Shown in pieces: positions 25,610-58,751 of a DNA stretch of 64,000 nucleotides. The stretch is from Conyzicola nivalis. GTDB taxonomy: Bacteria; Actinomycetota; Actinomycetes; Actinomycetales; Microbacteriaceae. The translations under genes were made by a program, and so were the position numbers. Position 1 is the first letter of the stretch. Each line of letters starts with the position of its first letter. The stretch covers positions 1,938,882 through 2,002,881 of the forward strand of contig NZ_BMGB01000001.1 in assembly GCF_014639655.1 (NCBI RefSeq), in the 5' to 3' direction. Under the pieces are notes generated by a model that was not told where the DNA came from, did no database searches, and saw only the letters and a program-made list of their open reading frames with translations.

Positions 25610-26311
25610 TTAAAGCAGGTATCCGTCTTCTGCGGCGCGTCGGATGAGCTCCGCCTTCTTGCTCGCCGGGCGGTTTGCCTTGGCGTACTTCTCGCGAACC
25701 CGGCGCAGGTAGGTCTTCGCCGTCTCGTACTGCACGTTCATCTTGCTCGCCACCTCGACGGTGCTGTAGCCCGAGACGTAGAGGCGGAACGCCTCGATCT
25801 CCCCCGCGCTGAGCTTCGGTCGCGACTGGCTCGTGGCGCCGACCGGGAGCGGACGCCAGTCGCGCTGCACCACGGTGTTGGGCCGCACGCCCATGATGGC
25901 GCGGGCGGCGTCCATCACCTCGCGCATCGGCAGCGTCTTGGAGAGGAAGCCCGCGGCACCCGCGGCGAGCGCCCGGTCGCGCGACTCGCGGCTGTCGAGG
26001 CTGGTGAGCACGATCACCTTGGCCCCGGCGGCGCGGCAGGTGCGCACCCTGGCCTCGATCGAGACCGGCTCCTTCAGCTGGAAGTCGAGGAAGACCAGGT
26101 CGGTGGGGAAGTTGTCGCTGTGCACGAGCTCGAGCCAGGTGCTCGCGCTCAACACGAGGTCGAAGTCGGGGGCGTTCGCGTAGATCCAACTGCTGAGGCT
26201 GTCGAGCAGTACCTCGTGGTCGTCGAGGATGGCCAGCCGCACGCGCGTCGGATCGGGCACGTTGCCCGCGCCCGAGGGGCCGCCGGCCTGCCTGCCCTCA
26301 ACGCTGTTCAT
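25610..26311 (-). CDS. LuxR-type (NarL) response regulator
   Basis: A 233-aa protein. The receiver domain covers about 25-145, with acidic pair DDHE at 30-33 and phosphoacceptor Asp76 in FLDFQL. LTSLDS and FLSKTLP are the later conserved positions. A C-terminal LuxR helix-turn-helix lies at about 168-233 (STVEVASKMNVQYETAKTYL). Its start overlaps the membrane partner gene by 14 bp, downstream of the kinase gene, so all three form one unit. It is the only response regulator seen with either of the two sensor modules in this window. Confidence 0.93.
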   Translation of the reverse strand: MNSVEGRQAGGPSGAGNVPDPTRVRLAILDDHEVLLDSLSSWIYANAPDFDLVLSASTWLELVHSDNFPTDLVFLDFQLKEPVSIEARVRTCRAAGAKVIVLTSLDSRESRDRALAAGAAGFLSKTLPMREVMDAARAIMGVRPNTVVQRDWRPLPVGATSQSRPKLSAGEIEAFRLYVSGYSTVEVASKMNVQYETAKTYLRRVREKYAKANRPASKKAELIRRAAEDGYLL

Positions 26312-27461
26312 ATGAAAACCTTAGTGTCAGCTCGGGGTGCTCGTGCTCGACCTGCAGGTCGCCGAACATCACGCGCACGACGGCGAGGAACGGCGCGAGC
26401 GGCCCCTTCACCACGTTCAGCTCGGAATCCAGCCGCGCCCGCAGCACCACGTCGCACCGCGCACCGGCGGGGGTGATCGCGATCTCGGCCCCTGAATCGC
26501 CCAGAGACTGCTCGTCGTGCAGCGCCACGATGAACGCTCGCAGCGCTGTGCGCTCGTCGGTGGACATGTGCTCGGCCAGCCGCTGTTCGTCGGTCACGAC
26601 GGCGCCCGCGGCCGCTGACGCCGTGTGTCCGCGGTGGCCGGCCTGCTCGACCACGCTCTCCAGCCAGGTCCTATCGACGTCGGCCACCATGAGCGCGCGC
26701 ACCTCGTTCGAGATCGCTCTGGCGCGCTGACGGGTTTCCTCGTCGACGACCGCGCCCTCGAGCAGCGCGGTGAAGAACGGGACGACCTCCTGGTTGAGCA
26801 CCGTCACGCTGTCCTGCTGCACCGACCGGGCGATGGAGTCGCCGCGCGCACCCGACATGGCGGTCGAGACGCGGTCGGCGCGCACCCGCCAGCGGTCGAG
26901 ACTGCGCACGAGCACGTCGACGAACGCCGCGGCACCGAGCGACATGGCGAGAATCGGCGTCGCCGCCACGACGACGAAGACCCCGACTGGCGCGTCGACC
27001 ACGAACGAGTCGGGCCGCACGAGGGCGACGAACGCCGCGATGAACGCCGACCCCAGTCCGGAAACCATGAGTTCCCTCGCCGGCCGGTAGGGGGCGAGCG
27101 CCACGATGAACAGCCCGACAGCCGGCGCGCCCCAGTTGTCGCGCAGGTAGGGGTCGGAGCCCCACATCGAGAGGTCGCTCGCGATCATCGCGGCCAACGC
27201 GGAGCCGACGACCAGCGCGTGCGTGCGCGCGGTGAGCGGTGCCCGCAGCGGGCTCGACCTCAGCACCAGGGCGAGGCTTGCGACGGCGACGAACAGCAGG
27301 GCCGCTATGGCGAAGGTCGCGCTGACGATGCTGTCGCGGTTCAGCCAGGTCATGATCCCCGCGTACACGGGCAGCAGCAGGCCGGCGAGGTAGCTGGTGG
27401 GTCGGCCGACGAGCGCCGCGAGCGGATCACGCTGCTGCACCGCGCGCTCCTGCGCACTCAC
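26298..27461 (-). CDS. membrane partner of sensor kinase, module A (degenerate kinase-like domain)
   Basis: A 387-aa protein starting at GTG 27461, overlapping the kinase stop as GTGA. Five or so membrane helices (about 20-180) precede a cytoplasmic domain. It has a helix with EVVPFFTALLEG and RARAISNEVRALMVADVDR, then ERTALRAFIVALHDE and a beta segment. This resembles the layout of the kinase's dimerisation and GHKL region, yet there is no N box, G1 or G2 motif and no H box. It is probably a pseudokinase or scaffold. A paralogous gene is at 56386-57513. Role inferred from topology and coupling. Confidence 0.7.
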   Translation of the reverse strand: MSAQERAVQQRDPLAALVGRPTSYLAGLLLPVYAGIMTWLNRDSIVSATFAIAALLFVAVASLALVLRSSPLRAPLTARTHALVVGSALAAMIASDLSMWGSDPYLRDNWGAPAVGLFIVALAPYRPARELMVSGLGSAFIAAFVALVRPDSFVVDAPVGVFVVVAATPILAMSLGAAAFVDVLVRSLDRWRVRADRVSTAMSGARGDSIARSVQQDSVTVLNQEVVPFFTALLEGAVVDEETRQRARAISNEVRALMVADVDRTWLESVVEQAGHRGHTASAAAGAVVTDEQRLAEHMSTDERTALRAFIVALHDEQSLGDSGAEIAITPAGARCDVVLRARLDSELNVVKGPLAPFLAVVRVMFGDLQVEHEHPELTLRFSYEQR

Positions 27462-28675
27462 GGCGCGACCTCCGGTTCGACCCTGTCGACCGCCGGAAGA
27501 CGAAGAAGAATGGATGTACCGGTGCCGGGTGTCGACCAGACCTGCACCGTGCCGTCCACCGTTTCGATGCGACGGCGCACCGACTGGCGAAGGCCCAGCC
27601 GGTCGAGGCTGGTCTCGCGTTCGGAGAAGCCCTTGCCGGCGTCGATGATCATCACGGAGACCTCGGCCTCCGAGCCGTAGACCACGACCTCGGCGCGGTC
27701 GGTGTCCGCGTGCTTGATCACGTTGACCAGGCACTGCTTGACGGCGAGCCCGACGGCCAGCTGCCGTTGGGCGTCCAGGCGCTGGATGGCGTTGGGGTCA
27801 CCGCTCAGTACGACCTCGAGGCCGAGGTCGCGCGCCTCGTCGATCGACCGGTACAGGCGGCTCGCGAACCAGCCGGAACGGTCGTCCGCCCACTCGCCGT
27901 CGCCCTCCGCGGGCGTCACGAGCCACTCCTCGCCGACGAGAACCTGGAGATCGCGCTCGATACGGCCGCGCAGGTTGCTGCGCAGCGCCCCGTCGGGCGA
28001 CACCGCGACGGCGGCGAGGTGGTTGAGGATCGTGTCGTGCAGCATGGCGGCGGCGCGCACCTCGATGCGGTGGCGGATGTCGGAGAGCTGCTCGTCACGC
28101 GCGGCGCGCTGCAGGCTCGGCTGGGCCAGGTACACGCGTTGGCGGCTCAGCCCGACGACCGTGAACATGATCGACACGACGCCGACGACGCCGAGCGCGG
28201 TGATGTCGGGGACGATAGCGGCACCGGTCTGCAGTGCGGCGACGATCGTGACCCCCTCGCCCAGGAGGTAGCCGGCGACGCACCAGGCGGTGGCCTTGAG
28301 CACACCGATACCCGCGCCCCCCACGACGGTGAGAGCGATCTTCGCGAGCGTGAACACGAAGTTGTCGGTGGCGATCACGTCGGGGAACTGGAGCGTCCCC
28401 GTATAGACGAGCGAGTAGACGCTGACCGTTCCGACGATCAGGTAGAGCACGGAGAACAGCGTGGTGCGGTAACGCTCGAGCAGCCAGAGCACGACGAGGA
28501 ACACCAGCAGCGAGACCGCCGCCGGCCAGAGCGTGGATTCGGGCCACCTGCTCTGCAGGGCGATCACGATGAGCAGTGCGGCCACGAGGACCACGAACGA
28601 GATCACGTGAGCGGCGCGCGCGAACGCGCGGCTCTCGCTATGGGGTGCGAGATGACCCGGTAGCCCGAGAGACAT
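27458..28675 (-). CDS. membrane histidine kinase, module A
   Basis: A 405-aa protein with about six membrane helices in residues 22-175. The cytoplasmic part has the H box AAAMLHDTILNHL (His213). The HATPase domain has Asn318 in LVNVIKHAD (N box), DAGKGF at 345-350 (G1) and GTGTS at 384-388 (G2). It is of the NarL-partner class (HisKA_3-like). It would phosphorylate the response regulator encoded two genes downstream. The stimulus is unknown, since no extracellular loop is large. The start may be at the ATG at 28675. Confidence 0.85.
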   Translation of the reverse strand: MSLGLPGHLAPHSESRAFARAAHVISFVVLVAALLIVIALQSRWPESTLWPAAVSLLVFLVVLWLLERYRTTLFSVLYLIVGTVSVYSLVYTGTLQFPDVIATDNFVFTLAKIALTVVGGAGIGVLKATAWCVAGYLLGEGVTIVAALQTGAAIVPDITALGVVGVVSIMFTVVGLSRQRVYLAQPSLQRAARDEQLSDIRHRIEVRAAAMLHDTILNHLAAVAVSPDGALRSNLRGRIERDLQVLVGEEWLVTPAEGDGEWADDRSGWFASRLYRSIDEARDLGLEVVLSGDPNAIQRLDAQRQLAVGLAVKQCLVNVIKHADTDRAEVVVYGSEAEVSVMIIDAGKGFSERETSLDRLGLRQSVRRRIETVDGTVQVWSTPGTGTSILLRLPAVDRVEPEVAP

Positions 28676-28774
28676 CTCAGCTTCCCCTCTGCTCGGTGAT
28701 TGTCACGACGCTAATGCGTTTAACGACACACGTCGCACCCCAGTTCGGGCGGTCTCGCAGGTTCGGGGTTGCGG

Positions 28775-55750: not shown

Positions 55751-56389
55751 TCACCCCGAGGATTCGAGCCGCAATTTGCGCGCCAACGGCGCCCACACGA
55801 TGAGTGCCGCGCCGACGCCGAGCAGCGCCCCGCCGACGGTGTCGCTCACCCAGTGCGCGCCGAGGTAGGTGCGGCTCACCATCATCAGCACGACGTAGGC
55901 CACACCCGCCACCCAGATCCAGGCCCGGCGGAAGATGATGGCGAGGCAGACGACGAGGGTGGCCGCGTTCGCGCTGTGCCCCGAGGGGAACGAGCCGAAG
56001 TCCGAGGTCACCAGCATGTCTTCCGGCCGCGGGCGCCCGACCAGGCTCTTCAGCACCTGTACGAGAAGCGCGCTCAGGATGCTCGCCACCGCGAGGAACA
56101 GGGCGCTCCAGTACCGGCGCAGCACGCAGAGCACGATGGCCACCGCGGCGGGCAGCAGGTAGGCGAACCAGCCGCCGCCGAGGAAGTTCATCACGAGCGA
56201 CGGCACCTCCCACGCGGGATGGCGGTGCTCGATGATCTCCTCCATCCACTCGGCGTCGCCCTCGAAGGGCAGGTTGCCGCGGATGGCGATGATCAGCCCG
56301 AGCAGCACCGCGAGCACGATGACGATGACCGCGCTCACGACCGGCCATCGTCTCGCTACTTTGTCGGATACCGGAGCTTCGTCGGTCAC
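55751..56389 (-). CDS. PAP2 family lipid phosphatase
   Basis: A 212-aa protein with six membrane helices. The phosphatase motifs are KSLVGRPRPED (C1), PSGHSANAA (C2) and SRTYLGAHWVSD (C3). GTG 56389 overlaps the membrane partner stop as GTGA. Members remove phosphates from undecaprenyl diphosphate or phosphatidic acid. It takes the place that a response regulator has in module A at 25610-28675. Link to the sensor is inferred from translational coupling. Confidence 0.88.
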   Translation of the reverse strand: MTDEAPVSDKVARRWPVVSAVIVIVLAVLLGLIIAIRGNLPFEGDAEWMEEIIEHRHPAWEVPSLVMNFLGGGWFAYLLPAAVAIVLCVLRRYWSALFLAVASILSALLVQVLKSLVGRPRPEDMLVTSDFGSFPSGHSANAATLVVCLAIIFRRAWIWVAGVAYVVLMMVSRTYLGAHWVSDTVGGALLGVGAALIVWAPLARKLRLESSG

Positions 56390-57513
56390 AGTGTTTCCTC
56401 GTGATTCGCGTTGGGGTCGAAGGTCAGCGTGATCGTGAGCGTGTTGTCGTGCGCCAGGTTCCACGAGACCGTTCCGAAAACACTACGTCCCACCGCGACA
56501 TACGGTGCCAGGTGCACCCGCGGGTTGTGCGACGGGCGGCACGGGACGACGATGGTGCACGTCGCCTCCCACTCGCTGCCGTGTAGCATCACGCGCATCC
56601 GCTCGTCGTCGAAGGCCGCGCTCGTGCGCAGGTGCGAGACGAGCGCCCGGATGAACCCGCGCTCGGCCTCCCCCAGGCGTTCGGCGAACCGGTGCCGGTC
56701 GTCGGCACCGCGCACGATGCGCGAGAGCCAGCTGCGCTCCGCGTCGAGCACGAGCAGGGTGCGCAGCTCGCGGGCCAGCATCCTGGCACGTTCGCCGTCG
56801 GCGGCGCTGAGCCCGGGCTGCCGGGCCACCCGCTCGAGAAACGGGTAGACCTGCTCGTCGAGGTGCACGAGGTGGCTGGCCCTGGCCGACGCCGGCGGTT
56901 CGAATCCGTCGGGGACGGATGCCGGTGGTCGCGAAACAGCGGACCGCCACGCGAGCAGGGAGTCGACGAGGCTGCGCGAGAACGCGCTCGCGGCGGCGCC
57001 GGTCGCCAGCACCGGGGTCGCCGAGAGCACCGCGAAAACGATCGCCGGGACATCCGCGTCGAAGCCGGCCGACCGGGCGAACGCGAGAGAGCCGATGACA
57101 ACCGCGCAGACGACGGTGCTGGCGAGGATCTCCCACCCCGGGCGCCAGGAGCCGAACGTGAGGGTCAGGATGGCGAGCGAAACGGGAGCCCAGTCGTCGC
57201 GCACGACCGAGTTGGTTCCCCACTGCGCCGCCGCCTCGAGCACGACCGCGAGCAGCGCCAGCAGGCAGACGACCACGAGGGCACCGCGCGGGAAGGGCGC
57301 GCGGAACGCGCTGGCCGCCCGCACGTAGCAGTATCCCGACGCGCTGATCGCGGCGAGCGCCGCGGCCTGCAGCCACCAGTTGTTCGTCTGGTCGGCGGTG
57401 AACGCGCTCATCGCGAACGCGACGACGAGCGCGACCACCACCGCGCCGATCGCGAACAGCCTGGCCGTGATGCCGCTGAGCGGGTCGAGCTGCTGCGCCG
57501 TGTCGTCTCTCAT
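56386..57513 (-). CDS. membrane partner of sensor kinase, module B (degenerate kinase-like domain)
   Basis: A 375-aa protein starting at ATG 57513, overlapping the kinase stop as ATGA. About six membrane helices precede a cytoplasmic domain. It has ERVARQPGL..., RARMLARELRTLLVLDAER and ERGFIRALVSHLRT, matching in order the module A partner (RARAISNEVRALMVADVDR, ERTALRAFIVALHD). A C-terminal strand region (HLAPYVAVGRSVFGTVSW) matches PLAPFLAVVRVMFGDLQV. No ATPase motifs are seen. It is clearly paralogous to 26298-27461. Confidence 0.75.
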   Translation of the reverse strand: MRDDTAQQLDPLSGITARLFAIGAVVVALVVAFAMSAFTADQTNNWWLQAAALAAISASGYCYVRAASAFRAPFPRGALVVVCLLALLAVVLEAAAQWGTNSVVRDDWAPVSLAILTLTFGSWRPGWEILASTVVCAVVIGSLAFARSAGFDADVPAIVFAVLSATPVLATGAAASAFSRSLVDSLLAWRSAVSRPPASVPDGFEPPASARASHLVHLDEQVYPFLERVARQPGLSAADGERARMLARELRTLLVLDAERSWLSRIVRGADDRHRFAERLGEAERGFIRALVSHLRTSAAFDDERMRVMLHGSEWEATCTIVVPCRPSHNPRVHLAPYVAVGRSVFGTVSWNLAHDNTLTITLTFDPNANHEETL

Positions 57514-58679
57514 CCGCGCGGCACCAGCATCGAGACGGCGGTACCCGCGCCCGGCGAGGTCCACACCTGCACGGAACCGCCGACGGCGTCGATGCGGCCC
57601 CGCACCGACTGGCGCAGGCCGAGCCGGTCGGGGTCCATCGCGGATTCGACGAAGCCGACGCCCGAGTCGATCACCATCACGCACACCTCGGTGTCGGTGG
57701 CCACCACGGTGAGCTCGGCCGCACCCGTGTGGGCGTGGGCGGCGACGTTGGCGAGGCACTGCTGCACGGCGAGGCTGAGGGCCACCGACGTGTGGGGGGC
57801 GAGCGACGAGAGCGCGCCGACCTCGCCCGCCACCGACACCTCGAGCCCGAGCGCCCTGGCCTGCTCGACGGCGGCGGCGAGATCTCCGCCGAGAACGTCG
57901 GCCGTGGCATCCGAATTTCTGCGTGCCCCCGCCCTGCGCACCGCGAGACTGCGCAGGATCTGTCCCTTCGCGGCGTCGGAGAGGGTGCCGGGGGCGACCG
58001 TGCCGACGACGGCGAGCTCGTTCAGGATCGTGTCGTGGACCATGGCCGAGGAGACGTGCTCGGCGCGCGCCAGCTCGGCGGCGACCCGGTCGTCATGGCT
58101 GGCGCGGCTGAGCTCCGGCTCGCTCGCCCTGGTGCGCCGCCTGCTCACCGTGAGCATCGTGATGATGAGAACGAGCGCGGCGGCGCAGCTGAAGGCCGGC
58201 ACGTCGAACGCGTAGCCGTGGCCCACGGCGAGCGACACCGCCACCACCGGGACCTCGCCGAGGAAGTACGCGACGACCACGCTCGCGACGCCGGTGAACT
58301 GGCGCGCCACGACCATGCCGAAGACCACGATGGCGATCTTCGGCAGCGACAGGAAGATGGCGTCGCTGGTGTCGATCGACCGCAGGGCGGGAAGCAGCAC
58401 GGCGGCGTAGCAGGGGATCGCGACGGGTGCGGCCACGGCCGACAGGGCGATGACCGCCGGCCGTTCGCCGAGGTCGGAGGCGACGACCACACCGAGGCCC
58501 GCGAGAACGACGAGCGCGACCACGGCCGGCCAGGCGGCCTCGGCCGGGCGGTCGATCCGGATCGCGACGAGGCTGACCGCGACCGACGTGAGGCAGACGA
58601 TGCCGAACCAGAACGAGCCCCTCGCCAACGCGAGGCTGGTGGTTTTCGCCGCCAACGCGTTCGGAAAAACGAGGGCCAT
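57510..58679 (-). CDS. membrane histidine kinase, module B
   Basis: A 389-aa protein from ATG 58679; a GTG at 58688 would add three residues. Several membrane helices fill residues 20-178. The H box is SAMVHDTILNELAVVG (His215). Asn311 is in CLANVAAHAH (N box), DSGVGF is at 338-343 (G1) and GAGTA at 377-381 (G2). The H-box segment matches module A closely (MLHDTILNHLAAV). No response regulator is adjacent, so it is an orphan; it may talk to the regulator at 25610-26311. Confidence 0.85.
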   Translation of the reverse strand: MALVFPNALAAKTTSLALARGSFWFGIVCLTSVAVSLVAIRIDRPAEAAWPAVVALVVLAGLGVVVASDLGERPAVIALSAVAAPVAIPCYAAVLLPALRSIDTSDAIFLSLPKIAIVVFGMVVARQFTGVASVVVAYFLGEVPVVAVSLAVGHGYAFDVPAFSCAAALVLIITMLTVSRRRTRASEPELSRASHDDRVAAELARAEHVSSAMVHDTILNELAVVGTVAPGTLSDAAKGQILRSLAVRRAGARRNSDATADVLGGDLAAAVEQARALGLEVSVAGEVGALSSLAPHTSVALSLAVQQCLANVAAHAHTGAAELTVVATDTEVCVMVIDSGVGFVESAMDPDRLGLRQSVRGRIDAVGGSVQVWTSPGAGTAVSMLVPRG

Positions 58680-58751
58680 AAGCCACACACTACTGGGCGT
58701 CCGGCGCCAAATCAGAGACTAGACGGCCGGGATTGCGGTTCGCTACGCGGA

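Follow-up and report, generated by a model that had tools for sequence, protein, structure and literature searches.

Textbook sensor kinases are homodimers. In Streptococcus pyogenes, according to passages of PMC7028121, the six-TM pseudokinase RocA, which combines a DHp domain with a degenerate CA domain, interacts in the membrane with the sensor kinase CovS and tunes it. The same species encodes a pair of kinase-like membrane proteins, FasB and FasC, and a regulator, FasA, at one locus; the two-hybrid part of PMC12675982 reports FasB/FasC heterodimers and no homodimers, and FasC is proposed there to be a pseudokinase. In Caulobacter, the pseudo-histidine-kinase DivL controls CckA, as set out in the sections of a review that cover DivL and RetS (PMC12189002). 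In Corynebacterium glutamicum, passages of PMC9491836 describe how a catalytically dead form of ChrS alters signalling via its paralogue HrrS; heterodimers form between HrrS and wild-type ChrS, while truncated ChrS gave no two-hybrid interaction.

The locus considered here lies in a stretch of DNA of 64 kb that was analysed as a whole (the window). It encodes a sensor kinase (K), a kinase-like partner (P) and a response regulator (R), and a second kinase-partner pair lies further along:

27458 to 28675, minus strand: K, six-TM sensor histidine kinase, 405 aa, with H213, N318, G1 D345 and G2 G384
26298 to 27461, minus strand: P, predicted six-TM pseudo-histidine-kinase, 387 aa, GTG start, in no Pfam or NCBIfam family
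26892 to 27425, minus strand: membrane part of P, about residues 13 to 190, six hydrophobic segments (hydropathy and model)
26676 to 26828, minus strand: DHp-like two-helix part of P, about residues 212 to 262 (profile alignment; model helices at pLDDT <60)
26301 to 26669, minus strand: CA-like GHKL core of P, residues 265 to 387, lacking the G1 and ATP-lid segment
27458 to 27461, minus strand: GTGA overlap of the K stop and the P start, read from the sequence
25610 to 26311, minus strand: R, response regulator of 233 aa with a receiver and a LuxR-type HTH, D76 conserved
28733 to 28750, minus strand: putative operator GCCCGAACTGGGGTGCGA, this locus's version of CCCC-N7-GGGGTACA, from a motif search
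57510 to 58688, minus strand: K2, kinase of the second pair
56386 to 57513, minus strand: P2, predicted pseudokinase of the second pair, in ATGA overlap with K2

The coordinates, the strand and the GTGA overlap of the kinase and partner genes are those of the original prediction. R starts within the 3' end of P and retains the acidic pair D30-D31, D76 and K125. P2 is 28% identical to P, and no R-type regulator lies directly downstream of it. A PAP2-type phosphatase gene (window 55751-56389) has its start in a GTGA overlap with the P2 stop, so that it and the second pair may be expressed together; such a gene lies near 2 of the 33 pairs without R.

The described systems differ from this locus in several respects. 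rocA lies apart from covRS and is not known to form a paralogue pair with covS; the FasBC kinase type is not that of K, and FasBCA belongs to another phylum; DivL differs from P in domain make-up, and DivL and CckA are not known to be close paralogues that share an operon with a LuxR-type regulator. In the passages cited, RocA-CovS does share with P and K a six-TM pseudokinase as the partner of a sensor kinase, and FasBCA shares with K-P-R two kinase-like membrane proteins and a regulator per locus. RocA keeps a dispensable H246 (PMC7028121) and FasC an H246 that is thought to be phosphorylated (PMC12675982), in the passages that treat these residues, whereas P has no histidine there. Passages of PMC7028121 describe neither fusions nor a many-copy family for RocA, and the K-P family has both. 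The dead ChrS of the cited passages is a laboratory frameshift; P, in contrast, is a conserved natural protein. By analogy, the mode of action would be of a known kind, namely, that of a pseudokinase partner of a histidine kinase, as in RocA-CovS, FasB-FasC and DivL-CckA. An open-licence literature search returned no paper recognisable as describing the K-P family. The family appears to be undescribed, and the obligate pairing of paralogues, the fusions and the operator appear to be new.

By its sequence, K is of the active-histidine-kinase type, with all of H, N, G1 and G2 present (H213-D-T, the N318 box, DAGKGF at D345 and GTGTS at G384). Pfam HATPase_c matches it at E 2.5e-7, and its H box and ATPase domain are indeed intact, as had been claimed. 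The closest NCBIfam model is HK_morpho_MacS (NF047322), at 51 bits far under the cut-off of 300; P does not match this family. Among 117 aligned kinases, the histidine is kept in 112, the asparagine in 116 and the Asp/Gly/Gly of G1 in all. In five kinases (L038, L039 and L083, which belong to one genus, and L118 and L129) N or R replaces the phospho-histidine, while their ATP motifs are intact. A looser regex finds the H pattern in 111/117 K, 11/11 KM, 10/12 KQ and 14/19 Kp kinases, and with such a regex HD[TSN] is missing from 5 of 19 L171-type kinases. Since kinases without the histidine exist, phosphotransfer cannot explain everything in every lineage.

P has six hydrophobic segments between residues 20 and 179, and K has six between residues 23 and 173 (alignment-averaged hydropathy), at nearly the same places, consistent with the predicted common membrane topology. 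In the cytosolic part, the strict patterns D.G.G, G.GT and N[VA]..H[AS] each occur in 0 of 115 P relatives. HD[TS] occurs in three, elsewhere than at the position aligned with the kinase histidine, and profile alignment sets N223 of P against H213 of K. Looser expressions over the last 240 residues matched, of the same 115 proteins, 6 with H[DE][TSN].?[VIL], 13 with an N-box-like string, none with D.G.G and 10 with G.G[TS]; these strings are scattered and chance-like. Among the more divergent partners, the looser D.G.G occurs in 1 of 14 of the M type, 6 of 21 of the Q type and 1 of 19 of the p type. Judged on these motifs, P lacks the marks of an active kinase (the phospho-histidine, N, G1 and G2), in agreement with the original prediction. 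P has conserved motifs of its own, SVQQDRVTILN-xxV-P, D-R-[ST]-W-L and QRTALRALL; P228 is kept in 110/115 relatives, the W-L of DR[ST]WL in 107/115 and R304 in 105/115, and 14 columns are invariant in an alignment of 34 sequences. The statement that the partner has no named family holds for both collections searched: Pfam gave no family up to E 10, and the NCBIfam rows lay far under their cut-offs (TraX, 14.6 of 100 bits; XrtZ, 9.1 of 475). A profile search of solved structures likewise found no relative of P (best E, 0.34).

AlphaFold2 models of P, built from only five sequences, were weak, with a mean pLDDT of 58 at full length and a better 64 for the cytosolic fragment, in which the GHKL-like part has values of about 70 to 89. 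Two model helices (residues 212 to 236 and 241 to 262) lie at the place of a DHp domain, at pLDDT <60, and the order of elements beyond them is that of a CA domain from which the G1/lid stretch is absent. All 50 VIA-align rows listed for the fragment were GHKL proteins (Z, 10.0 to 11.9; residues 265 to 387), including histidine kinases, CheA and BCKDH kinases. Foldseek matches of this fragment include DesK, DosS, VanS, RetS and the pseudokinase DivL (4q20), with designed proteins too among the top rows. With the full-length model, one VIA-align row paired the membrane part with an unrelated protein. The C terminus of P is thus modelled as a GHKL alpha/beta sandwich, which was the outcome sought in a fold check set beforehand; together with a profile collinear with that of the kinase, it bears out the claim that the cytoplasmic part of the partner is arranged like a kinase. 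On motifs and model, P is a predicted pseudo-histidine-kinase, with a kinase-like fold minus the catalytic motifs.

Profile comparison relates P to K directly. With hhalign the two matched at a probability of 94.7% over 297 columns; with gappy columns removed, the profile score was 68.2 versus a maximum of 21.7 in 40 column shuffles, and that of the C-terminal half alone was 33.4 versus 18.8. The cytosolic parts by themselves reached hhalign probabilities of 13% to 38%. The clearest partner-kinase link is found in the fused subfamily described below, whose partner, Q, matched its own kinase half at 98.9% over 361 columns, with a C-terminal score of 79.6 versus 19.8 when shuffled. Full-length profile scores for P-K, Q-KQ, p-Kp and M-K each exceeded all 40 shuffles. 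Matches of P to other kinase groups were lower (45.7% for Kp and 4.1% for KQ), and M matched its own kinases at 16.1%. The partner types P, M, Q and p match one another at 92 to 99% and therefore appear to form one pseudokinase superfamily. From these profiles and the one-frame fusions, we infer that K and P may have arisen by tandem duplication of a sensor kinase.

P was found in 109 of 199 genomes of the host's family by a single-sequence search, and a profile search of the order detected it in 10 of 297 genomes, all of them in the host's family; counts of absence are lower bounds because only the best few candidates per genome were scored, and the genomes of the different searches overlap. 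K lies directly upstream of P in 119 of 122 distinct loci (118 within 400 nt by rule, and L002 abutting). The loci lacking a clean kinase are L040, where the kinase match ends early, L045, a short relic, and L052, at a contig end. At L045, a short frame joins a kinase-like membrane part without a CA domain to a partner-like membrane part, which looks like a shrunken or decayed pair. The K stop and the P start share an in-frame 4-bp NTGA overlap in 96 of the 118 scored pairs. From the kinase side, all but two of the matches listed (to about 1e-28, compared by eye) adjoin a partner; at L158 the partner was found by profile, and L159 consists of a truncated kinase and R, without a partner. Ten weaker kinases (L160 to L169) all have a diverged M-type partner and a regulator. 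The third type, in the order R-K-p, was found in 26 of the 246 genomes searched within the class, and its kinase adjoins the p partner in 19 of 20 loci (L179 to L198; L197 is empty). A mixed profile found exactly five partners in this genome, belonging to the pairs at 26-28 kb and 56-59 kb of the window and at L036, L170 and L171; across the phylum it had matches in 11 of 256 genomes, several of them marginal. A plasmid-borne system was rejected, as neither P nor a fused protein had a tblastn match in plasmids at the limits used, and so was a phage-borne one, as viral contigs gave no confirmed relative.

A search with L052 as the query found 25 loci, and in 17 of these, all in another actinobacterial family (f36, a search label and not a taxon name), the kinase and then the pseudokinase are encoded in one open frame of 773 to 914 codons, some cut by the locus edge. 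The rest comprise three loci with separate K, Q and R genes, one cut by a contig end and four kinase-only matches. For 8 of the 17 fusions, the kinase profile matches best over a stretch of <200 residues. Pfam recognised the kinase half only of a fused protein, and the NCBIfam MacS model scored that half at 75 bits (cut-off, 300). At L198, in another family, a p-type pair occupies one open frame of 756 codons. Whether kinase and partner occur together across homologs had been named as a check on the original prediction, and both the adjacency and the one-frame versions in 17 loci elsewhere speak for it. Since relatives keep the two genes adjacent or fused, K and P probably act as a single receptor of two parts that switches a gene regulator.

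The response regulator said to follow the partner is present at the window locus. Across the family, R lies directly after P in only 77 of 122 loci and upstream of K in four more, and 45 of 122 are without R directly downstream. In L036, the third pair of this genome, and its relatives (13 loci), the pair occupies a conserved place after a gene that we take to be IspH-like, from one example translation, and has no regulator beside it. The pairs without R share no common output gene downstream. Within about 3 kb of 42 K-P-R loci, the neighbours include mqo (18 loci), tdk (12), a metallophosphoesterase (14) and PBP genes (8); since each occurs at only 8 to 18 of the 42, no functional reading is drawn from them. 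The distances of K and P are correlated (r, 0.75 over 114 pairs, where 500 permutations reached at most 0.21). For the 72 triads, the partial values were 0.59 for K-P given R (largest of 999 permutations, 0.21), 0.55 for P-R given K and 0.18 for K-R given P, in Mantel tests that do not fully remove shared descent. The second of these values suggests that P may also touch R.

In 75 regions ahead of K-P-R operons, unsupervised motif discovery yielded the element CCCC-N7-GGGGTACA, usually with a -10 like CATACT/CATAAT downstream of it. Scores >9 occur at 48 of 75 K-P-R operons, 0 of 42 pairs without a downstream R and none of the 375 and 210 shuffled regions, and scores >6 at 59 of 75 versus 1 of 42; the 75 regions counted here also served to train the matrix, and the 42 regions together with the shuffled ones act as the control. 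A second GGGGTACA lies about 20 bp on at L066, L067, L073 and L075. The genus of the window departs from the family motif, with GCCCGAACTGGGGTGCGA as its site, the core of which has one exact copy in the genome, ahead of K. Allowing up to two mismatches, the genome contains 24 sites versus 15 for a reversed control, so that no regulon can be named; the 64-kb window has 5 matches versus 3.5 expected. That the element tracks K-P-R operons fits autoregulation by R, and CCCC-N7-GGGGTACA is probably the autoregulatory operator of R.

We consider it likely that K and P together form a heteromeric receptor in which K is the catalytic subunit, the only one to handle ATP and phosphate, and P the sensing or allosteric one. 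K would have kept ATP binding and the phospho-histidine, both lost from P, which would have kept the six membrane helices, the DHp-like helix pair and the GHKL-like core. In a heterodimer or a K2P2 complex, the membrane and DHp-like helices of P may pack onto their counterparts in K, and P would sense a signal or set the balance between the kinase and phosphatase activities of K. After phosphorylation in cis or within a K2 core, K would pass the phosphate to D76 of R; R would bind the CCCC-N7-GGGGTACA site in front of the operon that encodes it and activate that operon.

Alternatively, P might be a separate accessory regulator that acts on K homodimers in the manner of RocA or LiaF, tuning kinase versus phosphatase activity rather than joining the DHp bundle as a co-subunit. 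This would predict the same genetics, and RocA, a six-TM pseudokinase that interacts with CovS in the passages cited (PMC7028121), offers a precedent; we nevertheless regard it as unlikely, given that the 4-bp translational coupling and the one-frame fusions favour a subunit in fixed ratio and that P and the K beside it are paralogues. A LiaF-like unrelated protein was rejected, since P is GHKL-like by VIA-align on its model and belongs to no Pfam family. Accessory proteins such as LiaF and EsrI have no kinase-like fold and possess a conserved domain of their own.

P might also mainly serve R, by docking it, dephosphorylating it or bringing it to K. The stronger tie of P than of K to R in the triads points this way, but P is kept in the 42 analysed pairs without a downstream R, and most fused loci also lack R within their 1.5-kb flanks and yet keep the pseudokinase half, which makes a role centred on R improbable. 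Least credible of all is that P is a decaying, functionless duplicate. Its kinase motifs are gone, as decay would have it, but the 14 invariant columns, the near-constant P228 and W-L and the constancy with which P stays beside K argue against this, and it was rejected on the conservation of P's own motifs. Beyond the two-part receptor that we favour for K and P, it is conceivable, as a tentative extension, that the Actinomycetes hold an old and diverse class of receptors, each a fixed kinase-pseudokinase pair encoded by two genes or as a fused chain, and that, where the kinase has lost its histidine, an ATP-driven shape change or another acceptor carries the signal, not classical phosphotransfer.

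If the heteromeric reading is true, these proteins would constitute a natural, recurrent family of obligate heteromeric receptors built from paralogous pairs, up to five per genome, together with fused versions. The pairs and the fusions would allow the roles of the two halves in sensing, catalysis and regulator docking to be dissected, with the putative operator as a ready reporter. They would thereby offer a test bed for the control of histidine kinases by pseudokinases, which work on RocA and DivL has not settled, and would give a named place to thousands of residues' worth of unannotated membrane proteins of the Actinomycetes.
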